Assembly: GCA_026261815.1 (NCBI GenBank)
Contig: JAMPIT010000884.1
Coordinates: 12,847,001 to 12,911,000 of the forward strand
DNA: 64,000 nt
DNA from: Monarcha castaneiventris obscurior
Lineage: Eukaryota > Chordata > Aves > Passeriformes > Monarchidae
Direction: 5' to 3'
The notes beneath the pieces were generated by a model. It was not told the origin of the DNA. It searched no databases and saw only the letters and a list, made by a program, of their open reading frames with translations. Made by a program: the position numbers and the translations under genes. Positions 41,575 through 61,456 of this stretch are shown here, piece by piece; within the stretch, counting starts at the first letter, position 1; each line of letters starts with the position of its first letter.

Positions 41575-42276
41575 TGTTATAAATGAAATGGGTAATTCGT
41601 GCTCAAATATACAATATCAAAATATGTACCAAAGTTAAGATATAACCAATATTAAAAGCGAACAGAACTAACCCTGGGGGAATTGTAACCTTTACAGGAA
41701 ATCTGATTTGCATCCAAAAACTAAGCTATGAGAATAACGACTCATCAGGAAAGGAATTAAGTTGGCTCCTGATATTTACATTTTCAGGGAGGACTTCTCG
41801 GAAGAACTGATTAAAAATCTCCGAAAAATCTCCTCCCAAGCTCAACTGATTAAGGATCTGCGAAAAGTCCCCTCCCAAGTTCAAGGTGCTAACGACTGGA
41901 TCTGGAACCAAGATATGGAACATCATGAACCATCAGATAACATCCTCTGGTGATGGGGCATTCATCAAAGACAGGATATGTTTTGTTCTTCCCAGTTTCA
42001 TGAATAGTGTACTTCATGCATATGCTGATTGACAGAAATAACATCCAAGATCCGGACTCTATGGGAAAAACTGTATAAAAATAAGCCGTTGGAAGCAGTG
42101 GTTGTGAACAGAGGGAAGTCTGATGTGATAGAGGTCAGACCTGTGTTCACCCAGTTCCAATCCCGGGCTTGGCACTGTCTCCTTTTTTCGATCGTGGCTT
42201 TGCGTGTTTGAACTCTCGGACATGAAATAAATTTTATATTTGTTTTATACTAACCGGGCACACTTTATTTATATCA
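41575..42276 (+). repeat. 5' LTR of provirus I1
   Basis: 702 bases, TGTTATAAATG...TTATATCA. Promoter box TATAAAA at 42074-42080 and AATAAA at 42226-42231, giving a short R region. The left border is marked by the second TGTTATAAAT inside the older LTR. Confidence 0.93.
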
Positions 42277-42278
42277 AA

Positions 42279-42296
42279 TGGTGACCCCGATGTGAT
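42279..42296 (+). other. Primer-binding site of I1, tRNA-Trp
   Basis: TGGTGACCCCGATGTGAT: one mismatch (C to T) to the tRNA-Trp complement, two bases after the LTR. Confidence 0.92.
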
Positions 42297-42640
42297 ACGA
42301 TTTTGGTATCACGGACCCCCATCTTCGCTCAGGAGGCGCCTCCGCTGATTTCAGCAGACTGACGAGACAAGGGACTCTGCGAACCAATTGTATTACCGAA
42401 CAAAATTTTTAATTTGCCACGTATCGAAAAGGAGGATAAAAAGAGCTCTCAGGGAACTCAGGGGAGATCGGGGAAGATCTCCGGAGCCGCGGCTAACTAA
42501 TTCACTTATAAAATCTACGTGCATGAAGAGCCCACGCAGGAAAAAGGACACTAAGTATTGCGTGGTTGAGCGAGGTGTGATTGAGCGTGTGTGAGACGTG
42601 AAATTTTCACGAAGTGAGTGCGGACCCCAAGATCACAGTT

Positions 42641-42663
42641 CCTCTCTCCCGCGAGGGAAGAGG
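42641..42663 (+). promoter_or_regulatory. Leader hairpin with GNRA loop (I1)
   Basis: CCTCTCTCCC-GCGA-GGGAAGAGG folds into a nine-pair stem with one bulged C and a GCGA (GNRA) tetraloop. It is identical in I2 (52375-52397). Position between primer site and gag suggests a packaging or dimerisation element; this is inference. A second hairpin (42885-42906) and a splice-donor-like AG|GTAAGA (GT at 42988) follow. Confidence 0.6.
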
Positions 42664-43016
42664 TCGGTCGCGGGGGAAGCGAGAGATACAAGAAAGGGGG
42701 GGGTAAAAACCCCGGTGACACACGTCGAGCCCGAATCTTCTAAGGAAATTCAGGGGATCGATCACGGAAGACCAGAAGGGAAGGGACGTTCCTTAGAGTT
42801 CGGGAACTGGTAAACCTTCTGATCTCGGACTGGATAAGTCCAAAAATAGGTTATTAGAAAAGAGAGCTGTTACCTGTGGAAAACCACCGGAACGGTTCGC
42901 CGCGGGGCCAGTAAACTGGTAAAATATCTGAGTAAAATGGCAAACAGTACTGATCACAACTGAAGAAACTCAGCGCAGAGTAAAAAGGTAAGACAAGCTA
43001 GCTAGAATAAAAAGAT

Positions 43017-44571
43017 GTGGGGCAGAGAAAAAGTAAAATCCAGAAAAAGTCCCAGGAAAAACCCACAAAAGGAAACAAGCAGAGCATACCTGAAATCCCT
43101 CAGGACAGTGCTCTGGGGTGGTTATTAGAACACTGGGGGGACTGCTCAGATCAGAGCACAAAATCCAAAGAGAAAATGATCTATTATTGTATCGAAATTT
43201 GGGGAGGTAAAGAAATCAGAGATCACCTAATGTGGCCTATATTTGGCACTTGTGAGAAATGGACGTGCCAAGCCTTAAATAATTACGTGGGTTCACGTAG
43301 TAAAGAGGAGAAGGAATATGCAAAAATTTGGGAAGACGCTAGAATAGGACTCCTCACAGTAAGAACTGATAAGAGTCCTGCAACTAAAAATGGGACTTGG
43401 GACCCTCTAGATCATCTCCCTCCCCCTTATATAGTTCCTCAGCACCAACCTGTAATACCAGATGCACCCCAAATAGATGGTGCGGCGGCAGCAGCAGCAG
43501 CAATCGCGTTACCAGAACCTGCTCCGATGCTGCAAATATTCCCTCAGCTCCCGACAAATCCTTTTCTGCTGCCCATAGGAGATGAAAGACAGACAATTCC
43601 TGCTAAGGTAATTGACCCTCCTCTGGCTAGTAGGACACGACTACAGACTAAGAAACTGGGTGATAAGACAGATACCCACTGCTCCGGGGGTTATTGGGTA
43701 CATAAATATACCTATTAATACCGGGGATGTAAGGGCATTTAAGAAGGAGATGGGAAAATTAATGGATGACCTGCTGGGTGTGGCAGATAGACTGGATGAA
43801 TTTTTGGGAACTAGTATATATTCATACGAGGATATTGGTGCGATTCTGAGGTCTTTATTTAATACTGAGGAATGGGAAATGATTAAACAAGCTGGAATAC
43901 GTGATTGGGAACGAAGAAACCCACAAGGGACCCCGGGGAATCAAAAATGGCCAAATCAGGACCCAGGGTGGGACCCACAAACGGAAGAGGGGAGGCGAAA
44001 TATGATTGATCTAAGAAATATTGTTATACAAGGAGTTAGAGATGCAGTACCTAGGGGACAAAATATGAGTAAGGTTTTTGGAGAATGCCAAGGGAAAGAC
44101 GAAACACCCACGGAGTGGCTCGAAAGATTAAGGCGAAATTTACAAATGTATTCAGGAACGGATCCTACCTCACCAGTGGGGGAAGTCTTGCTTAAAACTC
44201 AATTTGCTGCTAAATCTTGGGAGGACATTTGGAGAAAATTAGAAAAGATAGATAATTGGCAAGAAAAAGAGTTACAAGAACTCCTTCGAGAAGCCCAGCG
44301 CGTCTATATGCGAAGGGACGAGGAAAAGCAAAAAGCGCAGGCAAAAGTGTTAGTAGCGGCAGTTCGGGAAGCCCAGAAGCAGGAACGGTCCAAAAATGTG
44401 GTAAGTGCGACATGAAACATAGGACAATGGAAGGAATCTCCCTTCCATCAGAAACAATACCCTGAGAATCAGAGGAATGTCCCAGAATGTTTTTATTGCA
44501 AAATGAAGGGACATTTTAAAAAGGATTGTAAGAGGAGGTTAAGAGATGAAAAAATTTTTCAAACCGATTAG
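43017..44571 (+). pseudogene. gag: Provirus I1 gag
   Basis: Class I Gag. The matrix start reads GQRKSKIQKK after a GTG codon; an ATG overlaps two bases upstream in another frame, so the true start appears lost. Matrix: LGWLLEHWGDC, YYCIEIWGGKEIRDHL. A PPPY late motif (LPPPYIVP, about 43428) and a poly-Ala run follow. A deletion near 43665 shifts the frame; capsid continues at 43666-44415 (FKKEMGKLMDDLLGV, RDAVPRGQNMSKVFGE, ETPTEWLERLRRNLQ). TGA at 44413, then one zinc knuckle CFYCKMKGHFKKDC and the terminal UAG at 44569. Confidence 0.88.
44569..44571 (+). promoter_or_regulatory. Gag-pol UAG junction of I1
   Basis: The gag frame ends in UAG followed by AGGTGTCAGGGG, and protease continues in the same frame. 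This is the gammaretroviral read-through arrangement; I2 has the same at 54469-54471. Confidence 0.75.
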
Positions 44572-47500
44572 AGGTGTCAGGGGCTCTTCAATTTAGGGTC
44601 CATAACATCAAATTAGCCCTTGATAAAACTAAAATTGGGACCCTTAAAACAAGAACTAATGTTTTTAGTAGATTCTGGAGCTGAACGGAGTACGGTTCAG
44701 CAATTACCTTCGGGGTGTGTTAAAAGTAAAGAAACCATGGTGGTAATTGGTGCTAAGGGGGAACCATTTAAAGTACCTTCTATTAAAGATGTTGAAATAG
44801 AATCTGAAACAAAGACATGTTTGGGTAATTTGTTACTAGTAGAAGAAGCAGATTATAATTTATTGGGAAGAGATTTAATGGTGATTCTAGAAATTAGCTT
44901 GATTGGGCAGGAGGCACGACTGGTAGTGAGTTTGTATAAGTTAACTACAGAAGATGAGAGCGAAATAAATCCAAAGGTTTGGTATACCCAGGGGGAGGCT
45001 AGTAGAATAGAAATGACACCTATCCATATAGAAATTGAGAGACCAGAAGAACCCGTTAGAATTAAACAATATCCAGTCCCGATGGAGGGTCGGAAGGGGT
45101 TAAAGCCGATAATAGATAATCTTATATTACAAGGAACTTTGGAGTCGTGCATGTCTAGATACAACACCCCTATCTTAGCAATATTAAAACCTGATGGAAA
45201 TTATCGGCTTGTGCAGGATTTAAGAGCAGTGAATTCAAGAACTAAAACTTTATTTCCCACGGTTCCAAACCCATATATTTTGTTAAGTAACATCTCTCCT
45301 ACGGATATATGGTATAGTGTAATTGATTTAAAAGATGCATTTTGGGCTTGTCCTTTAGCCGAGGAGAGCCGGGATTATTTTGCTTTTCAGTGGGAGGATG
45401 CAGAGACAAACAGAAAACAACAGTTAAAGTGGACTTCATTACCTCAAGGGTTTGTGGATTCTCCAAATTTATTTGGACAGGCTTTAGAACAGGTATTAAG
45501 CCAGTTTGAACCTGTGAATGAAACTAAATTGCTTCAGTATGTGGATGATCTTTTAGTGGCTGGCCAGTCTGAGACAGAGGTGAGAAGGACTACCATAAAA
45601 TTGCTGAATTTCTTGGGAGATAGGGGTCTAAAGGTTTCAAAGTCAAAAATACAGTTCACAGAACCTGAGGTTAAATATCTTGGACATTGGTTAACAAAGG
45701 GGAAGAAGAAGCTAGATTCTGAATGAGTGACAGGTATCGTGGCTTTACCCTCTCCTAGTACTAAAAGGGAAATCAGACAAGTATTAGGGCTTGTCGGATA
45801 TTGTCGACAATGGATTGAAAATTATAGTGAAAAGGTAAAATTTTTATATGAAAAATTAACAATGGACCGAATTAAATGGACAGAACAAGATGAAGAAAGG
45901 TTCAAACAGCTAAAGGAGGCACTCTTAACAGCCCCTGTTTTAAGTCTCCCGGATGTAAAAAGGCAATTCCAGTTGTTTGTGGACTGCCTATGGGGTTCTA
46001 ACCCAAGATTGGGCTGGTGGAAGAAATCCTGTGGGTTATGTATCAAAGCTGTTGGATCCTGTGAGCAAGGGATGGCCCACGTGCTTGCAAGCTATAGTAG
46101 CAGTAGCATTGCTGGTAGAAGAAGCTAAGAAGGTGACTTTTGGGGCACCTTTAATAGTTTTTACCCCCCCATAGTGTAAGGAATCTGTTACAACAAAAAG
46201 CAGAGAAATGGCTCACCGATGCTCAGTTACTGAACTACGAAGCTATGCTAGTTCATTCACGAGAATTGGAATTACGAACAACTGGTGCACAGAATCCTGC
46301 GCAATTCCTATTTGGGGGTGTCTCAGAGACACCAGTTCACGATTGTGCTGAAATTGCTACATTACAGACTAAGATCAGACCAGATTTAGAGGAAGAATTG
46401 GATGAGGGTGAGAAATGGTTTGTAGATGGTTCAGCAAGAGTAATAGATGGGAAAAGAAAGTCGGGCTATGCAATAGTGGATGGTAAGACAGGGCAAGCAG
46501 TGGAGTCGGGACCACTGGATCCTAGTTGGTCAGCTCAGGTGTGTGAATTAGATGTGGTTTTACGGGCGTTACAGGGATTAAAAGAAAGAAAAGGAACGAT
46601 TTACACGGACTCAAAGTATGCCTATGGGGTGGTACATACGTTTGGAAAGATTTGGGAAGAGAGAGGACTAATTAACACTCGGGGACGAGGTCTGATTCAT
46701 GGGGAAATCATCAAAAGAATCTTAGATGCAATCAGGGAACCAGCAGAAATAGCAATAGTCCATGTAAAAGGACACCAATCAGGACTACAGTTCCGGACTA
46801 GAGGGAACAATTTAGCTGACAAAGAAGCCAAAAGCGCAGCTCTAATGAAGGTAAGTACTCCTAAAGTAGGGGAACCTGAAACACAGGAATATCCCTCCCA
46901 TCCTTCTGCGAAAGAAGTGGAGTTTTTTCAAAAGCTGGGGGCAAAATTGGAAGAAGGTAAGTGGAAGCTTCCAGATGGGAGGGAGCTTATTTCTAAAGAA
47001 TATGGTAGGAAAATTTTGAAAAGGTTACATCAACAGACACACTGGGGAACTAAAGCATTGGCAGAACAATTTCTAAAATTCTTTGGATGTAAAGGAGTAT
47101 ACGAATTGGCAAATCAAGAGGTACAGGGATGCATGATATGTCAAAAGGTAAATCGAACAACTTCTCAAAAAGCTATATTGGGAAGTCGACCAATAGCACA
47201 CCGTCCTTTTGAGAGAATCCAAATAGATTTCACAGACTTGCCAAAAGTAGGAAGATTCAAAAACCTATTAGTAGTAGTCGACAAATTGACCCATTGGGTT
47301 GAGGCTTATCCAACTGCAAGGGCTACTGCCCGGACAGTGTCTAAAATACTACTGGAAGAAATTATACCCTGATATGGTACAGTAAACTATATTGATTCAG
47401 ATCAAGGAACACATTTTACCTCAAAAATTATTAAACAATTAGTAGAAGCACTAGGAATCAGATGGGAATATCATACGCCCTGGCATCCTCAGAGCTCGGG

Positions 47501-48038
47501 CCAGGTTGAGAGAATGAACCAAACATTAAAGGCACAACTATCTAAATTAATGCTGGAGACTCAAATGATGTGGGTAAAATGTCTTCCTCTCGTTTTATTA
47601 AATATTAGAACTATGCCTCATTCGGAATCTGGACTCTCACCGTTTGAATTATTATATGGGATGCCCTATGAACATGGTATGCCTGTAGGACATCCTGGGA
47701 TAGAGGATGCTCAAATAAAACCCTACCTCACAGCGATAAGCCAAAATTTACAAGAATTAAGAAAATATGGTTTGATTTCACAGAGCTCACCCCTGGATTT
47801 TGCTATTCATAAAATACAGCCAGGAGATAATGTGTTAATAAAATCGTGGAGAGGAAGTTCACTAACACCTCACTGGGAAGGTCCTTGTCTCGTCCTCCTC
47901 ACCACAGATGCTGCAATACGTACTGCTGAGAAAGGCTGGACACATGCTTCTCGTGTAAAGAAAGTAGCAATTCAACCCAAATCACCTAGTTGGAAAGTAA
48001 CTTCTTCTCCAGGAGGTTTAAAGATAAAGCTGCGCTGA
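44572..48038 (+). pseudogene. pol: Provirus I1 pol (protease, RT, RNase H, integrase)
   Basis: Protease: FLVDSGAERSTV active site (Asp-Ser-Gly), about 44663. RT: YRLVQDLRAVNSR, VIDLKDAFWACPL (first Asp), TSLPQGFVDSP, LQYVDDLLVAG (active site). A TGA at 45724 ends the first open frame; a deletion near 45985 shifts the second. RNase H: WFVDGSARVIDG, CELDVVLRAL, IYTDSKYAYG, NNLADKEAK. Integrase: THWGTKAL/CMICQK zinc site, IQIDFTDLP, IDSDQGTHF, and VERMNQTLK. A TGA at 47370 lies in the integrase core. All catalytic positions are kept although the frame is broken at least three times. Confidence 0.9.
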
Positions 48039-48046
48039 CCTAACAA

Positions 48047-48592
48047 ATGAACCAGTTGGATCAGATAAGTTGTATCAACGCAAATTGTACTTGTTATCCC
48101 TTTATCACTTTTAAGTGTAAATATTGTAAAGAGTTTTGGGTAATTCACTGTAGCAGGGGTTACCCCCCTAGGGCATTGTGTACTAGGTGTTTGGAAGAGG
48201 AACTGGAGCTGACTAGCCTTGTATTACGGCTTGCTACCAATTTAGGGATAATTGAGCTAGACTTGTTTGAGTGGTACCAACTGTTTAAAAAGGGGGTAAG
48301 GGGAGAATTGGAATCACGAGCCCAAATTTTAAATAGCGAGTGTCGACGTTCAAACAAAGTACCCTGCAGTGCAGATGCAGTTAAGCTCTCTCGGTGGGAA
48401 ACATTTAAAAAGAGATATGCTACTCGGGTCGATATCAGGGGTCCGGAAGAATACGCCTGCTGCCGTGAAGATGGCTTACCCCGCCGCTGGTGGCAACCCA
48501 GTGGGCGGAGGCGTCGGCAGAGGAGTACACCTATGGGGACCCCTGATGATCCTGAACCTGGTCATATACCAGGCGATCAGTTCATAGTCTGA
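48047..48592 (+). CDS. orfX of I1: Cys/His-rich, Arg-rich frame between pol and env
   Basis: 181 codons, open, starting nine bases after the pol stop. Residues 9-48 have eight Cys and one His in pairs (CTC, CKYC, HC, CTRC), a possible zinc-binding fold. A middle helix-rich part follows (LELTSLVLRLATNLGIIEL). Residues 146-159 are strongly basic (RRWWQPSGRRRRQR), a nuclear/RNA-binding type signal. It ends in an acidic tail caused by one extra base relative to I2. In I2 the same frame runs on into env, so this may be the N-terminal leader of Env, or a separate regulatory protein. I recognise no family. The open frame is seen; function is inference. Confidence 0.7.
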   Translation: MNQLDQISCINANCTCYPFITFKCKYCKEFWVIHCSRGYPPRALCTRCLEEELELTSLVLRLATNLGIIELDLFEWYQLFKKGVRGELESRAQILNSECRRSNKVPCSADAVKLSRWETFKKRYATRVDIRGPEEYACCREDGLPRRWWQPSGRRRRQRSTPMGTPDDPEPGHIPGDQFIV

Positions 48593-48638
48593 GAGCACGG
48601 CCCAAGCGAAAGGGAAAAACCTAAGCATCGAGTGTGAA

Positions 48639-50738
48639 ATGTGCAAACTGTTTCTCCAGGAGGGACAGGGAGCGCCCTTTAACCGTACTGACTACTGTGA
48701 AAATGGAAAACTGAGCGGTACTAGATATGGGGTTTGCAGATTAGACAATGAAATAAATTGTATTCCCTGGAATGCAAGACTTAAACACCGGCAGTCAAAG
48801 CTCCTGGTCCAGAATAATGAAAATCATAAAAGGGAAAAGAGAGATATCAACCTTAAACATGTATCAGAATGTAAATTATGTAATCAGACAGTATGGATCG
48901 GTGGACAAATGAAATCTGTATTTTTAGGATACTTTCAAGTTAACCCTAAATGTTATGAAAACTCTAGACTAGACATATGTATAATAGAGGAAAAAACTTA
49001 TTGGGTAGGACAGAATGTGAAATGTGCTAGTAGTACGGTTCCTAACCATTATTTAGTTATGGCAAATGGCATGGAAGCAGATAATGATCAGATATGTTCA
49101 CAATATGAAAAAACCTTTTGTTTTTTAAAGAACAAGGATGGAATGAACCCAGAGCATAGTATTAAACAAATGACATTAGAAATAAAAAGACAGGAATCTG
49201 AAAGGAGAAAGAGGAAATTAGAACAAGAGAGATTACAAATGTTAAGCAAACCATATGATCAATTGGAAAGGCAATATGATGAAGGGGAATTACCAGCCTC
49301 TAACCAAAATTTGTTTATCGATTTAATGCAAGAAATTGCCACTGAATTAGGATTGTCTAATTGTTGGATCTGTGGGGGATTAAAATCAGCAGAAAAATGG
49401 CCTTGGAAAGGAGAAGGATTAACCCCGGAGCAACTTCTAAAATGGAATCAAGATAAAACCTTCATATCTACTCAGAGACCCGAAGGTTGGATCTTAGACC
49501 AAAGGATAATTGGAATAATTTGTGTCAGTCGCGAGGGTAAAGAGTACACTGATGTGGTGGGATATACACCCTGTATCTCCACTCTTACAGTCAACTCACA
49601 TAACAAAAGTAAAATCTGGCAGCCTGAAAAACCGGCTGGGTATTGGAGTCAGATAAAAAGAACAAATTGTGAATGGAATAATAATACAAACTTATGTTGG
49701 TACGAGAGCGCTGGGGCTAATCCTTTCCAATCCCTTGAAAATTTGAGGATATATTGGCAGGAACCAGAAAATCTGAAAATAACTTGGAAAGCCCCAAATG
49801 GCATTTACTGAATATGTGGTAAAAAGGCATATACCGAGTTACCCCGCAAATGGAAAGGCTCATGCACTTTAGGCATGATTCGACCTTCATTTTTTACGCT
49901 CCCAAAATCTGGGAGTAGTCTCTTAGGCGCACCTCTATATGAAACATTAAACAGGAGAAAAAGGGAAATTAAAAAGGAGCTACCTATGGCCGGAGGTAGT
50001 CAAAAATGGGGAGAAGAAGAGTGGCCTGCTGAAAGAATTATAGAATATTATGGTCCTGCTACATGGGCTCAGGATGGAAGCTATGGATATCGAACCCCGG
50101 TGTATCTGCTAAATAGATTAATTAGGCTCCAGGCTGTGGTAGAAATAGTATCAAACCACACTTCAGATGCTCTGGAGCTCTTGGCAAAACAACACACTCA
50201 AATGCGAGCATTCGTATATCAAAACAGAATTGCTCTAGACTATTTACTAGCAGAAGAAGGAGGAGTTTGTGGGAGATTTAATGAATCAGAATGCTGCATT
50301 GAAATAAATTATTACAGAGAAACTATTAGGGGGCTTGCAGCAGAAATCAAAAAGGTCGCTCATGTTCCTGTCCAGAAATGGAATTCTATTTTACAAGCAT
50401 CATGGTGGGATCATTTGTTCGAAGGAGCATGGTGGAAGAAAGTAATATTTTTTATCTTGTGCTCAATAGCAGGAATAATATTTGTGCCCTGTTTGATCCC
50501 TTGCTTTATTCGGCTGATTCATTCTGTGGTACAAGGCACGCAAGTAGCAGCAATGCCGATAGATCCAGAATTGGCCAATGGAAGAACAGGACATCCCACA
50601 AACATCTCAAAAATTATGGAATTAAGAGAGAAACAAGAAAATAATAGAGCAGCAGAAGCTCTAATGAAATTTGAGGAACAAATAAGAAATAATGATGGAA
50701 CTTTGCGACAACAATGTAATGAGTATGAATATTTGTAA
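48639..50738 (+). pseudogene. env: Provirus I1 env
   Basis: Gamma-like Env in one frame with one internal TGA at 49809 (Trp codon in I2). Order: N-terminal Cys-rich part; a basic cleavage-type site KREKRD (about 48835); surface subunit with CKLCNQTVWIGG; a highly charged, coiled-coil-like helix (IKRQESERRKRKLEQERL, about 49180-49240); CWICGG, the CXXC disulfide motif of class I Env; second basic site NRRKREIKK (about 49955); transmembrane subunit with a helix ending YQNRIALDYLLAEEGGVCG, then Cys-X7-Cys-Cys; anchor VIFFILCSIAGIIFVPCL; tail ending EYEYL (endocytosis-type Tyr motif). An extra basic site and charged helix in SU are unusual. Confidence 0.88.
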
Positions 50739-50785
50739 ATATGTTTATAAAGGTATATTTTAAGCACGAATTAATGTTACCAATT

Positions 50786-50799
50786 AGAAAGAGGAGGGA
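50786..50799 (+). promoter_or_regulatory. Polypurine tract of I1
   Basis: AGAAAGAGGAGGGA just before the 3' LTR at 50801. Confidence 0.82.
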
Positions 50800-50800
50800 T

Positions 50801-51284
50801 TGTTATAAATGAAATAGGTAATTAGTGCTCAAATATACAATATCAAAATATGTACCAAAGTTAAGATATAACCAATATTAAAAGCGAACAGAACTAACCC
50901 TGGGGGAATTGTAACCTTTACAGGAAATCTGATTTGCATCCAAAAACTAAGCTATGAGAATAACGACTCATCAGGAAAGGAATTAAGTTGGCTCCTGATA
51001 TTTACATTTTAAGGAGGACTTTTCGGAAGAACTGATTAAAAATCTACGAAAAATCTCCTCCCAAGCTCAACTGATTAAGGATCTGCGAAAAGTCCCCTCC
51101 CAAGTTCAAGGTGCTAACGACAGAAATAACATCCAAGATCCAGACTCTATGGGAAAAACTGTATAAAAATAAGCCGTTGGAAGCAGTGGTTGTGAACAGA
51201 GGGAAGTCTGATGTGATAGAGGTCAGACCTGTGTTCATCCAGTTCCAATCCTGGGCTTGGCACTGTCTCCTTTTCGATCGTGGC
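50801..51284 (+). repeat. 3' LTR of I1, internally deleted and cut by I2
   Basis: Same family as 41575-42276. It lacks 137 bases corresponding to 41897-42033 of the 5' LTR, with GAC at both breakpoints (microhomology). It ends at GTGGC, where I2 begins; the expected end of this LTR is not found intact beyond I2 (see tail 61457-61534). Confidence 0.9.
51280..51284. repeat. Target-site duplication of I2 (GTGGC)
   Basis: GTGGC recurs at 61452-61456 directly after the 3' LTR of I2. Confidence 0.9.
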
Positions 51285-52008
51285 TGTTATAAATAAATAA
51301 TTCGTGCTCGAATATAAAATACCAAACTATGTATTAAAGTTAAAATGTAACAAATATAAGATGTAAATAAAAGACTGGTCTCGGAGAAAATTGTAACCTT
51401 CACTAGGGGGAACTGAGTTGAAAAACTGGTTTTGGGAGAAAATGCAGCCCTGCGAGCTGGACTTCAGGAACAAAAGGCCCATCCAGGGAGAAATTAAGGC
51501 ATCTCCTAGCATTTGCACCTTCAAGGAGAACTTCTCGGAAGGCTGATCAAAATCTATGGAAAATTTCTTCCTGAGTGTGGCCGATTAACAACCTGCGAAA
51601 ACTCCCCTCCCAGATGCAAGGTGCTAACGACTGGATCTGGAGCCAAGATATGGAACATCACGACCCATCAGATAACGTCCTCCGGTGATGGGGCATTCAT
51701 CAGAAGCAGGATGTGTTTTGTTTCTCCCTGCACCGTGAATAACATGCTTTATGTATATGCTGATGGACAAAAATGAGATCATAGATCCGGACTCCGGGAA
51801 AAACTGTATAAAAATCGGCTCCTGGGACCAGTAGTGGTGAACAGAGGGAGGTCTGATGCGATAGAGGTCAGACCTGTGTTCACCCAGTGCCAACCCCGGG
51901 CTTGGCTCTGTTTCCTTTTCCGATCGTGGCTTTGCGTGTTTGTATTTTTAAACACGTAATAAATTTTATATCTGTTTTATATTTAATTGGCTTATTTCAT
52001 TTATTTCA
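51285..52008 (+). repeat. 5' LTR of provirus I2
   Basis: TGTTATAAATAAATAATTCG...TTATTTCA. TATAAAA at 51807-51813; ACGTAATAAATTTTAT near 51955 as polyadenylation signal. Its U3 is clearly diverged from that of I1. Confidence 0.95.
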
Positions 52009-52010
52009 TT

Positions 52011-52028
52011 TGGTGACCCCGACGTGAT
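52011..52028 (+). other. Primer-binding site of I2, tRNA-Trp
   Basis: TGGTGACCCCGACGTGAT, a perfect 18-base tRNA-Trp complement, two bases after the LTR. Confidence 0.95.
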
Positions 52029-52374
52029 ACGATTCTGGTATCACGGACCCCTGTCTTCGCTCAGAAGGCCCCCCCGCTGATTTTAGCGGGCTGACGAGAC
52101 AGGGGACTCCGTGAAACGGTCATATCACCGAACACAAAATTTTAACGTGCCACATATTGAAAAGGAGGAAAAAGGAGCTCTCAGCGAACTCGTAGGAGAT
52201 CAGGAGCCATCTCCGGAACCGCGGCTAGTTGATTTCGCTTATAAAATTCTACGTGCACGAAGAGCCCACGCAGGAAAAAGAACCGTAAGTATCGCGTGGT
52301 TAAGCGAGGTGTGATTGAGCGTGTGTGAGACGTGAAATTGTTCACGAGTGAGTGCGGACCCCAAGATCGCAGTT

Positions 52375-52397
52375 CCTCTCTCCCGCGAGGGAAGAGG
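52375..52397 (+). promoter_or_regulatory. Leader hairpin with GNRA loop (I2)
   Basis: Same stem and GCGA loop as 42641-42663 in I1, with identical sequence in a diverged leader. Confidence 0.6.
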
Positions 52398-52616
52398 TCG
52401 GTCGCGGGGGAAGCGAAAGGTTTAAAGGAAGAGGGGGAGTGAAAAGAAACCCTTGTGGCAACACGTCAAGCCCGAGCTTCTAAAGTTTCAGGGGATCGAT
52501 CACTGGAGACCAGAAAGGGAAGGGTATGTTCCTTGGGAGTTCGGGAATTGGTAAACCTTTCTGGTCTCGGACTGAAACATGTCCTGGGCATAATAACGAC
52601 AAGAGAGAGAGCTGCT

Positions 52617-52757
52617 ACCAGCGGAAAATCCCCGGAACGGTTCTCCGCGGGGCCAGTAAACTGGTAATGTATAAAAGTTGTAAACGGTACCGATTAAGAG
52701 AGCAGATACCAGCAGAAACACCTCCGGAACGGTTCTCCGCGGGGCTAGTAAGTTGGT
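52617..52757 (+). repeat. Duplicated GC-rich hairpin unit in I2 leader
   Basis: A unit of about 50 bases occurs at 52617-52667 and 52708-52757. Each contains GGAACGGTTCTCCGCGGGG, which can pair CCCCGGA with TCCGCGGGG, and ends in AGTAARYTGGTA. I1 has one copy (about 42875-42920). A splice-donor-like AG|GTAAGT follows (GT at 52813). Confidence 0.65.
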
Positions 52758-52871
52758 AAATTGGAAAATATCCTAAATATATCTGAAGAAACTCTGTGCA
52801 GGAAAAAAAAAGGTAAGTTAAGCTAGCTAAAAGAAAAAGAAAAAAAAGAAAAAAAAAAAAAAAAAGGGCCT

Positions 52872-54471
52872 GAAAAAAAGTAAAATCCAGAAAAAATCTC
52901 AGAAAAAATCCCTGGAAAAAGGTAAGCAAAGTATTCCTGAAATCCCCCGGGATAGTCCCCTGGGGTGGTTGTTAGAACACTGGGAGGATTGCCCAGACCG
53001 AAGTATAAAATCCAAAGAAAAAATGATCCATTACTGCATTGAAATTTGGGGAGGTAAAGAAATTAGAGATCACCTTATGTGGCCTACTTTTGGCACATTT
53101 GAGAAATGGACGTGCCGAGCTTTAAACAAATATGTGGGCTCACGCAGTAATGAGGAAAAAGAATATGCGAGAATTTGGGAATACGTCAGAACAGGACTCT
53201 TCACAGTAAAAACCCGAGAGAGTCCTACAACCAAAAGCGTATCTTGGGACCCCTTAGATCATTTACCTCCCCCTTATATAGTTCCCCAGCAGCACCCCGT
53301 AATCCCAAATGCACCTCAGATAGATGTACCAGCAGCAGCAGCCGCGGCAGCAGCAGCAATCGCGTTACCAGAACCGGCTCCGATAGCGCAGGTTGTTCCA
53401 CAGCTTCCAACAAACCCTTTCCTGCTACCCGTAGAAAACGAAAAACAGACGATTGCTGCTAAGGTAAGTGACCCTCCTCTAGCTAGTAGAACACGATTGC
53501 AAACTAGGAAACTGTCTGATAAGTCCGTAGAGGGCAGTGACGGAGCCTCTAATCTCTTGCCTTTGAGACAAGTACCCACTGCTCCGGGGGTTATCGGGTA
53601 CATAAATATACCCATTAATACTGGAGATGTAAGGTCATTTTAAAAGGAAATGGGGAGATTAATGGACGATCCACTGGGTGTGGCAGACAGGCTAGATGAA
53701 TTTCTGGGAACTAGCATATACTCATATGAAGATATTGGTGCAATTCTGAGGTCCCTATTTAATGTTGAGGAACGTGAAATGATAAAACGGGCTGGAATAC
53801 GTGATTGGGAACAGAGAAACCCACAAGGGACCCCAGGTGATCAAAAATGGCCACATCAAGACCCGGGGTGGGACCCACAGACGGAAAGAGGGAGGCGAAA
53901 TATGATTGATCTAAGGAACATCGTTATACAGGGGGTCAGAGATGCGGTGCCTAGAGGGCAGAATATGAGCAAAGTACTCGGGGAGTGTCAGGGTAAAGAT
54001 GAGACACCCACCGAATGGCTCGAAAGGTTAAGGAGAAATCTGCAAATGTATTCAGGAACAGATCCCTCCTCACCAGTGGGGGAGGTCTTGCTTAAAACCC
54101 AATTTGTTGCAAAATCTTGGGAAGATATTCGAAAGAAATTAGAAAAAATAGAAAATTGGCAAGAAAAAGAATTACAAGAACTCCTTCGAGAAGCCCAGCG
54201 CGTTTACATGCGAAGGGACGAGGAGAAACAAAAAACGCAGGCAAAGGTATTAGTAGCGGCAGTTCGGGAAGCCCAGAGGCAAGAACTGCCTGGGAGTGCG
54301 GCAAGCCCGACACAAAATGTAACACCTTGGAAGAGGGCTCCCTCCCACAAAAAGCAATATTCTGAAAATCAAAAGGACCTCCCAGAATGTCATTATTGTG
54401 GAAAGAAAGGACATTTGAGAAGGGAGTGCAGAAGGAGATTAAGAGATGAAAAAGTTTTTCAAACTGATTAG
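52872..54471 (+). pseudogene. gag: Provirus I2 gag
   Basis: In-frame from about 52872 to the terminal UAG at 54469, with a single internal TAA at 53641. The start ATG is not visible: the place is taken by an A-rich tract (about 52802-52865). Matrix LGWLLEHWEDC and YCIEIWGGKEIRDHL; late motif LPPPYIVP (about 53268); poly-Ala run; capsid RLMDDPLGVADRL, RDAVPRGQNMSKVLGE, ETPTEWLERLRRNLQ; zinc knuckle CHYCGKKGHLRREC. Better preserved than I1 gag, which has a deletion near 43665 and an extra TGA. Confidence 0.9.
54469..54471 (+). promoter_or_regulatory. Gag-pol UAG junction of I2
   Basis: UAG followed by GGGTGTCAGGGG with protease in the same frame; a read-through junction like that of I1. Confidence 0.78.
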
Positions 54472-57400
54472 GGGTGTCAGGGGCTCTTTAATTTAGGGTC
54501 TATAACATCTAAGGAGCCCTTGATAAAATTAAAATTGGGACCCTCAAAACAAGAATTAATGTTTTTAGTAGATTCTGGCGCTGAACGAAGCACAGTTCAG
54601 CAGTTACCCTCGGGGTGCCTTAAAAGCAACGAAACTATGATAGTAATTGGTGCTAAAGGGGAACCATTTAAAGTACCTGTTATTAAAAATATTGAAATAG
54701 AATCCGAAACAAAGTCATGTGTTGGTAACTTGCTATTAGTAGAAGAAGCAGATTATAATTTATTGGGGAGGGATTTGATGATAATTTTAGAAATCAGCTT
54801 GATTGTACAAGAAGCACGACTGGTGGTAAGTTTGTATAAATTAACTATAGAAGATGAGAAAGAAATAAATCCAAAGGTTTGGTATACTCAAGGGGAGGCT
54901 AGTAAAATAGAAATGACACCAATTCATATCAAAATAGAGAAGCCAGAAGAACCCATCAGAATAAAACTATCCAATCCCGATGGAGGGTCGAAAGGGATTA
55001 AAACGGATTATAGATAACCTTATCTCCCAAGGAACATTGGAACCATGCATGTCCAGATATAACACTCCTATCTTAGCGGTATTAAAACCTGATGGGAACT
55101 ATTGGCTTGTACAAGATCTAAGGGCAGTAAATGCCAGAACCAGAACCCTGTTTCCCACGGTCCAAAACCCATATACGATATTAAGTAACATCTCTCCTGA
55201 GGATGTCTGGTATAGTGTAATTGACTTGAAAGATGCATTTTGGGCTTGCCCTCTAGCTGAGGAAAGCCGGGACTATTTTGCTTTTCAATGGGAGGACCCG
55301 GAAACAAATAGAAAACAACAACTAAGGTGGACTTCATTACCCCAAGGGTTCGTGGATTCTCCAAATTTATTTGGGCAAGCTTTAGAACAGGTATTAAGCC
55401 AGTTTGAACCCATAGATGGAACTAAGTTGCTTCAATATGTGGATGATCTTTTGTTGGCTGGTCAATCCGAAATAGGGGTGAGAAGAACTACCATAAAATT
55501 GTTGAACTTCCTGGGAGATAAAGGTTTAAAGGTTTCAAAATCCAAATTACAGTTTACAGAACCGGAGGTTAAATATCTTGGACACTGGTTAACAAAAGGG
55601 AGGAAGAAGCTAGATTCTGAAAGGGTGACAGGTAATTGTGACTTTGCCTTCTCCCAGCACAAAAAGGGAGATCAGGCAGGTGTTAGGACTGGTTGGTTAT
55701 TGTCGACAGTGGATTGAAAATTACAGTGAGAAGGTGAAATTCTTATATGAAAAGCTAACAATGGATCAGATAAAATAGACAGAACAGGATGAAGAAAAGT
55801 TTAAACAGCTAAAGGAGGCACTCATAACAGCTCCTGTTTTAAGCCTCCCAGATGTAAAAAGACAGTTTCAGCTGTTTGTGGATGTGAGTAATCATACTGC
55901 CTATGGTGTTCTAACTCAAGATTGGGCTGGTGCAAAGAAACCCGTGGGCTATATATCAAAACTGCTGGACCCTGTAAGCAGGGGATGGCCCACGTGCTTA
56001 CAAGCCATAGTGGCAGTAGCATTGTTAGTAGAAGAAACTAAGAAAATAACCTTTGGGGCACCTCTGGTGGTTTTTACTCCCCATAGTGTAAGAAATCTAT
56101 TGCAACAAAAAGCAGAAAAATGGCTTACTGATGCATGATTACTGAAATATGAAGCTATGTTGGTTCATTCACATGAATTAGAATTGCGAACAACTGGTGC
56201 ACAGAATCCAGCACAATTTTTATTTGGGGGCATCTCAGAGGCACCCACTCATGATTGTGCTGAGATTGTTACACTTCAAACTAAGATCAGATCCGACTTG
56301 GAGGAAGAAGAATTGAGTGAGGGGGAAAAATGGTTTGTCGATGGCTCGGCAAGAGTAATAGATGGTAAGAGAAAGTCAGGTTATGCTATAGTAGATGGTA
56401 AGACGGGGCAAGTGGTTGAATCAGGACCGCTAGACCCTAGCTGGTCAGCCCAGGCGTGTGAATTATATGCGGTTCTGCGGGCATTACAGGGGTTAAAAGA
56501 AAGGAAAGGAACGATATATACAGATTCGAAATATGCCTTTGGGGTGGTGCATACTTTCGGGAAGATTTGGGAAGAAAGGGGGTTAATTAACACCCGAGGA
56601 AAAAGCCTGATTCATGGTGAAATTATAAAGAGGATCTTAGAAGCAATCAGGGGACCAACTGAAATAGCAGTAGTTCATGTAAAAGGACACCAATCAGGAT
56701 TACAGTTTCAAACCAGGGGAAACAATTTAGCTGACAAAGAAGCTAAAAATGCAGCTCTCATGACGGTAAGTACGCCCAGAATAGGGGAGCCCGAAACACT
56801 TGAATATCCCTCCAACCCATCAGATAAAGAAATAGAGTTTTTTCAAAAACTTGGAGCAAAATTAGAAGACGGTAAGTGGAAACTCCCGGATGGGAGAGAA
56901 CTTATTTCAAAGGAATGTAGTAGAAAAATTTTAAAAGGATTACACTTCCAGACCCACTGGGGAACTAGAGCATTGGCAGAACAATTTCTAAAATTCTTTG
57001 GATGCAAAGGGGTATATGAATTGGCTAATCAAGAAGTACAAGGATGTATGTCAAAAGATAAATCGAAAAATCTCCCGAAAAGCTATATTAGGAAGTCGAC
57101 CAATAGCTTACCGTCCTTTTGAAAGGATCCAAATCGATTTCACCGACTTGCCAAAGGTTGGGAGATACAAGAATTTATTAGTAATAGTCGATAAATTAAC
57201 ACATTGGGTTGAGGCTTTTCCAACTACAAGGGCTACTGCCCGGACAGTATCTAAGATACTGTTAGAAGAAATTATACCCAGATATGGAATAATAACTGTC
57301 ATTGATTCGGATCAAGGGACACATTTTACTTCGAAAATTATAAAACAACTAGTAGAAGCATTAGTAATCAGGTGGGAATACCATACACCCTGGCACCCTC

Positions 57401-57956
57401 AGAGTTCTGAGGTAGAGAGAATGAATCAAACCTTAAAGGCACAATTATCAAAATTAATGTTAGAAGCTCGGATGACATGGGTAAGATGTCTTCCCCTTGC
57501 TTTATTAAACATCCGCACTATGCCCCATTTGGAATCTGGACTTTCACCATTTGAGTTATTGTATGGGATGCCTTATAAACACGGTATGCCTATAGGACAT
57601 CCTGGAATAGAAGATACTCAAATGAAACCTTATCTCACGGCAATAAGCCAGAATTTGCAAGAATTAAGGAAATATGGGTTAATATCAAAAGGCATACCCT
57701 TAGATTTTGCTATCCATAAAATACAACCGGGGGATAAAGTGCTGATAAAATCATGGAAAGGGAGCCCACTAACACCTCATTGGGAAGGTCCCTTTCTCGT
57801 TCTCCTCACTACAGACTCCTCGATACGTACTGCTGAGAACGGCTAGACGCATGCTTCCCGAGTGAAGAAGACTGAAATCCAGCAAGAACCGTCTGACTGG
57901 AAAGTGACCTCTTCTCCAGGGGAATTAAAGATAAAGCTGCATCGTCCTAACAAATG
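54472..57956 (+). pseudogene. pol: Provirus I2 pol
   Basis: Protease FLVDSGAERSTV; shift near 54965-55000; RT with YWLVQDLRAVNAR, VIDLKDAFWACPL, TSLPQGFVDSP, LQYVDDLLLAG; shift near 55630; TAG near 55775; RNase H from 55878 with WFVDGSARVIDG, CELYAVLRAL, IYTDSKYAFG, NNLADKEAK; TGA at 56136; shift near 57045 in the integrase zinc site; integrase core IQIDFTDLP, IDSDQGTHF, VERMNQTLK; TAG at 57844. At least six lesions, none shared with I1 as far as I can see. Catalytic residues are kept. Confidence 0.9.
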
Positions 57957-58490
57957 AGCCATCTAAGTCAGATAAGTTGTAATATCAAGAATTGCAATTG
58001 TTATCCTTTCATCACCTTTAAATGCAAATATTGTAAAGAACTTGGGTGGTTCACTGTAGCAGGGGTTATCCACCAAGGGCACTGTGTACAAAGTGTTTAG
58101 AAGAGGAACTAAAGCTGACTAGTCTGGTATTACGTCTTGCTACAAATTTGGGGATAATTGAATTTGACTCATACGAGTGGATTCGGCTGTTTAATAAAGG
58201 GTTAAGAGGAGAATTAGAATCGAAGGCTGAGATTTTAAATATCGAGTGCCGGCGATTAAATAAAGTACCCTGCAGTACGGACACAGTAAAGCTTTCCCGC
58301 TGGGAAACATTTAAAAGGAGATACGCTACCCGGGCTGACATCAGGGGTCTGGAAGAATACGCCTGCTGCCGTGAAGATGGCTTACCCCGCCGCTGGCGGC
58401 AACCCAGCGGGCGGAGGCGTCGGCAGAGGAGTACACCTATGGGGGCCCCGATGATCCTGAACCTGGCCATCTACCAGGTAACCAGCCCGA
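57954..58490 (+). pseudogene. orfX of I2: frameshifted copy, in frame with env
   Basis: Second copy of the pol-env reading frame. ATG at 57954; Cys pattern CNCYPFITFKCKYC kept; one base lost near 58037 shifts the start out of frame. From 58046 the frame is open: HCSRGYPPRALCTKC, LKLTSLVLRLATNLG, then GRRRRQRSTPMGAP, and it continues without a stop into env. A strong splice-donor match CAG|GTAACC (GT at 58479-58480) lies just after the basic region; in I1 the GT is GC. Presence in two diverged copies supports a real gene or env leader. Confidence 0.72.
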
Positions 58491-60652
58491 CATTTGAAAG
58501 CACTAGCCCAGAAATAAGGAAAAGCCTCAATATTGAGTGCGAAATATGCAAACAGTATCTCCTGGAGAAACGGGGCGTTTCCCTCGGCCACACTGACAAT
58601 TGTGAGACCGAAAAATCAGGCAGGTACTGTGAAATAAACGGCACTCGATATGGGATTTGCAGATCAGAGAATGGAATAAATTGTGAACCTTGGCAAGCAA
58701 GACCTAAAAACCGGCAGTCAAAGCTCCTAGTTCACAGAAATAAAAATCTGAAAAGAGGAAAAAGAGACATTCATTTGAACCCTATACAAGAATGTAAATT
58801 ATGTAATCAAACAGTATGGATTGGTGGGCAAAAGAAATCTGTGTTTTTTGGATACCCTCGGGTTCACCCTCAATGTTATGAGAACTCGGGATTGGACATA
58901 TGTAAAATGGAAGGAAGGACTTATTGGGTAGGACAAAATGTAAAGTATACTAGAAACATGATTTATAATCATTATTTAGGCATGGGTACAAGTGAGGATC
59001 AGATATGTTCTCAGTACGAAAAAACCTTCTGCTTCTTGAAAAATAAAGATGGAGTAGACCCTGACCACAGTATTAAACAGATGTCCTTAGAGATAAAAAG
59101 GCAGGAATATGAAATGAGGAAGAAGAAATTGGAACAAGAAAGATTACAAATATTAAGCAAACAGTATGACCAATTAGAAAAACAATATGATGAGGGAGGA
59201 CTGCCTACCTCTAATCAAAATTTGTTCATTGATCTCATGCAAGAAATCGCTACTGAATTAGGATTATCAAATTGTTGGATCTGTGGTGGATTAAAATCGG
59301 CTGAAAAATGGCCCTGGAAAGGAGAAGGATTAACCCCCGAGCAACTCCTAAAATGGAATCAGGAAAAAGCCTTTGTGTCTGCAAAAAGACCCGAGGGTTG
59401 GATCTTAGATAAAAGAGTAATTGGAATAATCTGTATCAGCTGAGAGGGTAATGAGTTCACTGATGTGGTGGGATATACACCCTGTATTTCCACCCTGGCA
59501 GTTAACTCACATAATAAAAGTAAAATCTGGCAGCCTGAAAAACCGGCCGGATATTGGAGTCAGACAAAAAGCGAAAAATGCAAATGGAATGAGGATATAA
59601 AATTATGCTGGTACGAGAGTGCTGGGGCTAATCCTTTCCAATCCCTCGAAAATTTGAAAATCTATTGGAGTGAACCAGAAAACCAAAAATTAATATGGAA
59701 TGCCCCAAATGGCATCTATTGGATATGTGGGAAGAAGGCCTATAGCTTACTGCCCCGTAAATGGAAGGGTTCATGTACCCTACGTATGATTCGGCCTTCA
59801 TTCTTTACACTTCCAAAATCCGGGAGTAATCTCCTGGGGGCACCTTTACATGAAACTCTGAATAGACGGAAAAGAGAAATTAAAAGGGAGCTCCCTATAG
59901 CTGGAGGCACTCAGAGGTGGGGAGAAGAAGAATGGCCTGCAAAGCGAATTATAGAATACAATGGTCCTGCTACTTGGGCACAAGATGGAAGTTATGGATA
60001 CCAAACCCCAGTGTATCTGCTAAACAGATTGATCAGGCTCCAAGCGGTGGAAGAAATTGTATCTAATCACACCTCAGACGCTTTGGAACTCCTGGCAAAA
60101 CAACACACTCAGATGAGGGCTTTTGTATACCAAAACAGAATCGCCCTAGACTATCTGTTAGCAGAAGAAGGGGGAGTTTGTGGAAAATTCAACGATTCAG
60201 AATGTTGCATTGAGATAAATGATTATGGAGAAACAATTAGGGGGCTAGCAGCAGAAATCAAAAGAGTTGCACACGTCCCGGTTCAGAAGTGGAATTCTAT
60301 CTTACAAACATCCTGGTGGGACCGCTTGTTTGACGGAGCCTGGTGGAAAAAGATGGTATTTTTCATCTTGTGTTCGGTAGCAGGAATAGTATTTGTGCCT
60401 TGTTTAATCCCTTGCTTTATCCGATTAATACATTCAGTAGTGCAAGGCATGCAAATATCAGCAATGCCTATAGACCCGGAGTTAGCTAGTGGAAAAGGGG
60501 GACTCCCTACTAACATCTCAAAAATTATGGAACTACGAGAAAGCCAAGAGGAAGAGACTAGAGCAGCAGAAGCTCTAGTAAAATTTGAGGAGCAAATTAG
60601 AAATGGTAATAAAACTTTGAAACAACAATGTAATGAATATGAATACTTGTAA
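58491..60652 (+). pseudogene. env: Provirus I2 env
   Basis: One frame from orfX to the stop at 60650 with a single TGA at 59441 (Arg codon in I1). Features as in I1: N-terminal Cys-rich part, basic site KRGKRD (about 58755), CKLCNQTVWIGG, charged helix (IKRQEYEMRKKKLEQERL), CWICGG, basic site NRRKREIKR (about 59870), helix YQNRIALDYLLAEEGGVCG, Cys-X7-Cys-Cys, anchor VFFILCSVAGIVFVPCL, tail EYEYL. The premature stop lies between the CXXC motif and the second cleavage site, so any product would lack the membrane subunit. Confidence 0.9.
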
Positions 60653-60711
60653 GAAAGTATAGATAGTATAGGTTAAGAAAGTATATTCAAGCACGAATAA
60701 ATGTTACCAAT

Positions 60712-60726
60712 TAGAAAGAGGGGGGA
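60712..60726 (+). promoter_or_regulatory. Polypurine tract of I2
   Basis: AGAAAGAGGGGGGA immediately before the 3' LTR. Confidence 0.85.
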
Positions 60727-60727
60727 T

Positions 60728-61451
60728 TGTTATAAATAAATAATTCGTGCTCGAATATAAAATACCAAACTATGTATTAAAGTTAAAATGTAACAAATAT
60801 AAGATGTAAATAAAAGACTGGTCTCGGAGAAAATTGTAACCTTCACTAGGGGGAACTGAGTTGAAAAACTGGTTTTGGGAGAAAATGCAGCCCTGCGAGC
60901 TGGACTTCAGGAACAAAAGGCCCATCCAGGGAGAAATTAAGGCGTCTCCTAGCATTTGCACCTTCAAGGAGAACTTCTCGGAAGGCTGATCAAAATCTAT
61001 GGAAAATTTCTTCCTGAGTGTGGCCGATTAACAACCTGCGAAAACTCCCCTCCCAGATGCAAGGTGCTAACGACTGGATCTGGAGCCAAGATATGGAACA
61101 TCACGACCCATCAGATAACGTCCTCCGGTGATGGGGCATTCATCAGAAGCAGGATGTGTTTTGTTTCTCCCTGCACCGTGAATAACATGCTTTATGTATA
61201 TGCTGATGGACAAAAATGAGATCATAGATCCGGACTCCGGGAAAAACTGTATAAAAATCGGCTCCTGGGACCAGTAGTGGTGAACAGAGGGAGGTCTGAT
61301 GCGATAGAGGTCAGACCTGTGTTCACCCAGTGCCAACCCCGGGCTTGGCTCTGTTTCCTTTTCCGATCGTGGCTTTGCGTGTTTGTATTTTTAAACACGT
61401 AATAAATTTTATATCTGTTTTATATTTAATTGGCTTATTTCATTTATTTCA
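60728..61451 (+). repeat. 3' LTR of provirus I2
   Basis: Same length and, by eye, one base different from 51285-52008; followed by GTGGC. Confidence 0.95.
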
Positions 61452-61456
61452 GTGGC

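Follow-up and report, generated by a model that had tools for sequence, protein, structure and literature searches.

In the published excerpts cited here, viruses of the gamma type are described as having few accessory genes, if any (PMC9967133), and ERV-Fc, like other gammaretroviruses, is described as having none (PMC4798954). Additional open reading frames (ORFs) are on record in gamma- or epsilon-like viruses: HERV-T has one located 5' of gag (PMC5388530), the walleye viruses have cyclin-like ORFs, and fish epsilon-like endogenous retroviruses (ERVs) have CNPase or macro-domain ORFs (PMC4299795; PMC4977317). Three frames were described in the chicken ERV Ovex1 (PMC2717909). Here we describe X, a reading frame between pol and env of an ERV in the songbird Monarcha castaneiventris obscurior, located in a 64,000-nucleotide (nt) stretch of contig JAMPIT010000884.1 that is called the window below. 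Judged from the sequence, X is an extra conserved Cys-rich gene in bird retroviruses of a type usually described with the basic genes only. We consider it probable that X is an accessory gene with a bicistronic X/env expression layout, an estimate that covers the gene and its layout and excludes the activity of the protein.

The window contains two related proviruses, I1 and I2. In I1, X occupies 48047..48592 on the + strand as an open frame of 181 codons (48047-48589) followed by the stop codon TGA (48590-48592), directly 3' of pol, whose stop codon is at 48036-48038. The best match of the I1 reverse transcriptase (RT) in the PDB was 7uyn (E = 7.9e-64), and the RTs of Moloney murine leukemia virus (1mml) and HIV-2 matched with E values of 1.4e-62 and 1.4e-21, respectively. 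The end of the integrase matched MLVIN_C (E = 2.2e-9), and the transmembrane (TM) part of Env matched TLV_coat (E = 6.6e-10), which is a gamma-type TM. Based on these three matches, the family carrying X is classed as a gamma-like (class I) ERV of songbirds. It resembles gammaretroviruses and mammalian class I ERVs such as murine leukemia virus (MLV) and ERV-Fc in its RT and integrase end, which are closest to MLV, and in its TM. Whereas those viruses are reported without accessory genes, and a simple gammaretrovirus has nothing extra between pol and env, this family has at that position a conserved X under selection. The extra ORFs of HERV-T, the walleye viruses and the fish ERVs differ from X in position (HERV-T) or in content. 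Open-licence papers in PMC, to which the literature search was confined without subscription journals, gave no description of an X-like gene in birds, and the excerpts of PMC4272516, PMC10536682, PMC4299795, PMC4977317 and PMC1224870 do not mention one.

A protein database search with the single X sequence returned 4 matches and a profile search returned 11, including those 4. Ten of the homologs share 46-64% identity with X; the eleventh, P0011, is a degenerate gene model of Passer domesticus that covers 29% of X, and it was left out of the alignment, which has 11 rows (I1 and the ten homologs). Residues 1-48 of X contain eight Cys and one His (C9, C14, C16, C24, C27, H34, C35, C45 and C48), and the N-terminal Cys/His domain, residues 9-48, is encoded at 48071..48190 (+). 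These positions were kept in most of the rows that could be compared: C9 in 7/7, C14 in 7/8, C16 in 7/9, C24 in 9/11, C27 in 10/11, H34 in 8/10, C35 and C45 in 10/11 each and C48 in 11/11. Further along, C99 was kept in 11/11 rows, C107 in 10/11, and C138 and C139 in 11/11. Several of the absent N-terminal positions belong to rows with a differing N-terminal start. A conserved Cys/His ligand set of the zinc-binding type is thus present in X, which makes zinc binding by the protein likely. Searches of X against Pfam and PDB sequences gave no relevant match, only chance-level ones, and scans of IMG/VR with X alone, the X alignment, the integrase end, an Env piece and the Env alignment found no relative.

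Over X, I1 and I2 are 82% identical, and the substitutions at codon positions 1, 2 and 3 number 14, 18 and 52. The ratio of nonsynonymous to synonymous substitution rates (dN/dS) was 0.082 in the 139 codons that do not overlap env and 0.054 in codons 1-48, the Cys/His domain. The corresponding values were 0.063-0.085 for pieces of gag and pol, 0.161 for the surface (SU) part of Env and 0.048 for TM, whereas reading X in its two wrong frames gave 2.06 and 1.68. Only 26 amino-acid changes were found in the 139 codons; neutral simulation averaged 50.9, and not one of 2000 runs had so few. X is under purifying selection between I1 and I2, comparable to that on pol. Among 13 pairs of genomic copies compared over the same non-overlapping part, 11 had a dN/dS of 0.082-0.456 and 2 were saturated in dS. 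The lowest values came from comparisons across subgroups (L001-L006, 0.082) and the highest from the close pair L001-L004 (0.456), with 0.344 for L001-L012; a higher ratio in a close pair is expected where inserted copies decay. The sequence-only reading had pointed out a Cys/His-rich frame that separates pol from env in a gamma-like ERV family of birds, and had named a dN/dS near 1 or drifting Cys positions as evidence against its proposal. That an extra gene is present there is borne out by selection, homologs and Cys spacing, since dN/dS is far below 1 and the Cys positions are conserved. By these signs the X frame is a real gene, neither a chance frame nor an Env leader. Antisense frames are also open in both copies (48160-48561 and 58066-58470, - strand). 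The first was considered as a gene and rejected: 40 of 62 substitutions fall at its third positions (dN 0.11, dS 0.40), a pattern that we take to mirror the coding of the sense strand.

The gene is multicopy. A search of the 1.08-Gb assembly, in which the window lies on contig C673, gave at least 67 X matches, some of them pieces of one copy, and 30 of these were taken with their flanks (L001 is I1 and L016 is I2). Seven of the 30 copies have an X of 181 codons and one has 176; L004 and L011 overrun the usual end, and 20 have early stops. The pairs L005/L008 and L019/L020 are more than 99.5% identical. Six further copies, L031-L036, were taken from weaker matches at 34-40% identity, and five of them are near-identical to one another. 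All six have many stops, and all six keep CxCYPFxxFxCxxC and the downstream HC. The CC ahead of.EDG is kept in 4/6, and the Env start KNTPAAEKM is read in the other frame in 4/6, with a variant in 2/6. The retention of the Cys motif in such decayed copies indicates that the X gene is old in its lineage.

The 3' end of X overlaps the start of env. In I1, the Env start codon and signal peptide (48471..48584, +) lie in another frame over the X C-terminus; from the ATG at 48471 the Env frame reads MAYPAAGGNPVGGGVGRGVHLWGPLMILNLVIYQAISS and is then interrupted by a stop at 48585-48587. An Env ATG within X, in the different frame, was present in 30/30 genomic copies. A search with the Env piece gave 29 Env homologs, 16 of which (14 from Hirundo rustica) have the X-overlapping start by pattern; P0012 from Corvus kubaryi shows it by eye, and the other 12 start downstream or differ (P0014, P0029). 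In the overlap, I1 and I2 share 90-97% identity over the 60-nt windows starting at 48420-48520, compared with a mean of 81%. This is what dual coding predicts, and the basic tail of X can therefore not be credited to X alone. In L004 the core of the Env signal peptide is tandemly repeated inside the overlap and is readable in both frames. The segment 48430-48629 has the strongest predicted RNA fold among 143 200-nt windows of the I1 interior (z = -3.2). For 48430-48560, z was -4.0 in I1 and -1.9 in I2, and 3 of 28 predicted pairs were changed on both sides, two of these in five subgroup B rows of 16; an RNA structure at this place is suggestive only.

Upstream of X, a splice acceptor is predicted at 47990..48012 (+) in I1. 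It ends 35 nt before the X start and ranks first of the 703 AGs in 42250-50800, and its counterpart in I2, at 57919, ranks second in its stretch. The AG is kept in place in 25/30 copies, and in I1 no ATG lies between the acceptor and the ATG of X. From the X start to the Env start, no AG scored higher than 1.1 in I1 and 0.6 in I2, compared with 6.3 and 5.9 for the predicted acceptor. The X start codon (48047..48049, +) has a weak context in I1, with C at -3 and A at +4. The X start is an ATG in 29 of the 30 copies, and in all 30 position -3 is a pyrimidine (C or T) and position +4 an A. For the Env start, position -3 is A in 30/30 and position +4 is G in 28/30. Two out-of-frame ATGs, which read in the frame of Env, lie between the two starts of I1, where synonymous recodings contain about 8 (P = 0.0002; 0.0006). 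When 58 overlapping control windows were taken from gag, pol and env, none showed such scarcity at P 0.01. There are no intervening ATGs in L005, L007, L008 and L009, two in L006, five in L012 and one in I2. In the mechanism that we propose, one singly spliced mRNA with the acceptor ending at 48012 would carry X as the first cistron and env as the second. Most ribosomes would bypass the weak X AUG (48047) and initiate at the strong Env AUG (48471), and a minority would translate X.

The closest known arrangement is vpu/env of HIV-1, in which a weak vpu AUG precedes env on a common mRNA and ribosomes scan past it to Env (PMC2657110, in excerpt). The X/env unit has the same elements, namely an accessory gene with a weak upstream AUG, a strong Env AUG and overlapping frames; leaky scanning was measured for vpu/env and is proposed here. 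The proteins differ, since Vpu is a membrane protein, whereas X is a Cys/His protein that looks small and apparently soluble, and no sequence relation to Vpu was found. The resemblance presumably arose by convergence, and no kinship is claimed.

Conservation, selection, overlap, start contexts and the acceptor motif can be read directly from the DNA; splicing, leaky scanning, zinc binding, a partner and the activity of X are what we infer. Several observations weigh against an accessory gene with this layout. The acceptor ranks come from a simple splice-site score with approximate weights, and the same scoring did not single out the donor sites. Over the 30 copies, intervening ATGs are common (43, 24 and 10 in the Env, third and X frames, respectively), and L012, with five, has an open X, so that the scarcity is clear only in I1, L005 and L007-L009. 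It is mostly the Glu-Asp-Gly codons of X that impose the strong context of the Env start, and the invariance of Glu-Asp-Gly may serve Env, X or both. A test of dual coding from the Env proteins showed no significant shift of variation to second codon positions (15 changes at position 2 and 11 at position 1 in the overlap against 96 and 98 outside, P = 0.53); the first variable residues in this test were suggestive, but only post hoc. One multicopy subgroup (L018-L021, L024-L026 and L029) has a common TGA after codon 97 of X, indicating that X was not needed for that spread; either its X was already interrupted when it multiplied, or segmental duplication produced the copies. Structure prediction did not help, as AlphaFold with the 11-row alignments gave poor models with a mean predicted local distance difference test score of 35.9 (I1 as first row) and 45.8 (P0001 as first row). 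The better, still poor, model gave 58 Foldseek matches in the PDB with E <= 10, none of which reached E <= 0.001, and no fold is claimed. In this model C24-x2-C27 forms part of a hairpin and C45-x2-C48 sits where a helix begins, an arrangement that would suit a treble clef but was not relied on. The intact X of I1 beside broken pol and env frames was also not used as support, since X is short and a rough estimate allows luck.

As for what the protein does, the N-terminal Cys/His domain would bind zinc, and the conserved middle (ECRR..NKVPCSAD..KLSRW..FKRRY) together with the CC.EDGLP motif would contact a host or viral partner. We think that a viral regulator or a host-factor adaptor is likelier than a structural role. 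One specific form of this, which we regard as possible on the unlikely side, is an antagonist of a host factor, in which the zinc domain would fold an adaptor that delivers a cellular restriction factor for degradation, in the way known from lentiviral Vif. The position of X between pol and env, the strong selection on its Cys domain and the spread of a multicopy subgroup with an interrupted X, which is expected if the gene is needed only in some cells, all agree with such a role. However, no ligase-binding motif and no homolog were recognised, and antagonists often evolve fast, which X does not.

A Tat-like activator, which would bind zinc, enter the nucleus and raise transcription or elongation from the long terminal repeat (LTR) through a hairpin at the RNA 5' end, is a weaker proposal and seems rather improbable. 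Lentiviral Tat and foamy Tas have a Cys-rich part and an Arg-rich stretch, and X, also a small protein, has both. A stable hairpin lies just 3' of the TATA box at 42100-42152 in I1 (z = -3.8) and 51834-51886 in I2 (z = -3.4), at the predicted RNA 5' end. Six LTRs have it in similar form (those of I1 and I2 and four of eight fetched), and its lower stem is kept in the subgroup B LTR L041. However, 3 of the 8 fetched LTR stretches had no match to test, and 5' hairpins occur also in retroviruses without Tat-like activators. X is moreover one uninterrupted frame, unlike Tat and Tas. Searches of PDB and Pfam sequences, with lentiviral proteins among the PDB chains, showed no relation to either protein, nor did the fold of the poor model. 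The basic run GRRRRQR, which the sequence-only reading took for a nuclear or RNA-binding signal, is present in I1 (residues 153-159, 48503..48523, +), yet it is poorly conserved, with 5, 5, 3, 1, 4, 3, 2, 3, 5, 1 and 0 Lys/Arg in the 11-residue stretch across the 11 rows (the final row being incomplete), and its DNA also encodes the Env signal peptide. A role of this run in RNA binding or nuclear entry is thus weakly supported. Residues 95-130, outside the Env overlap, are basic in 11/11 rows (net +2 to +8). That the songbird gamma-like lineage became complex independently, with a zinc-dependent regulator acting on its own RNA 5' hairpin in the manner of Tat/TAR and a vpu/env-like leaky-scanning unit, is an equally doubtful extension.

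It is very improbable that X serves chiefly as a long upstream frame for adjusting the output of Env and does little as a protein; the weak start of X and its overlap with Env would suit this role, but selection acts at the amino-acid level along the non-overlapping part of X.

Returning to X as an accessory gene, its copy in I2 bears on the one remaining alternative. This copy, at about 57954..58450 (+), is broken near codon 30 by a 1-nt deletion near 58040, and a second 1-nt deletion near 58450 joins the end of X to the Env frame. The sequence-only reading had noted that X runs on into env in I2; the continuity is there, but it results from the second deletion and is a minority form, with the joining signature in 2 of 30 copies (L011 and L016), so that it either arose twice or was passed by recombination. 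The least probable explanation, already largely refuted, is that X forms the N-terminal portion of a long leader of Env that has an additional function, which that reading also suggested: the deletion places the end of X in the Env frame in these two copies and L011 is open from the X start on into Env, but the frames differ in the remaining copies, Env has its own start in 30/30 copies and its own signal peptide in the homologs, and X of I2 is broken already upstream of the junction. MMTV Rem and the JSRV Env signal peptide, which belong to the Env frame, are betaretroviral regulators that X resembles in having an Arg-rich candidate at the Env start, but X lies in a different frame with its own stop.

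The remainder of Env in I1 consists of an SU reading frame (48588..49808, +) that follows the stop at 48585-48587, and a frame for the SU end and TM (49812..50738, +) that follows a stop at 49809-49811. Of 18 sequences, comprising I1 (48588-48850) and 17 homologs, 13 have a second, N-proximal furin-like site (R/K-x-R/K-R) no more than 40 residues ahead of C..CN.TVW, and a cleaved propeptide of Env is possible. The 5' LTR of I1 begins at about 41575. I2 is nested in the 3' LTR of I1 (51285-61451), with its LTRs starting at 51285 and 60728, and is flanked by a 5-nt duplication, GTGGC, at 51280-51284 and 61452-61456. The two LTRs of I2 agree at 99.86% of 724 positions, and despite this the frames of pol, X and env in I2 are interrupted, suggesting that I2 may have moved by means of helper proteins.

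With X conserved in a songbird family that is multicopy and partly young, the complex retroviruses would gain a lineage of the gamma-like type. The X/env unit would show convergent use of an overlapping pair of a weak and a strong start, and X itself would represent a new family of proteins, for which a partner might be sought in living birds.
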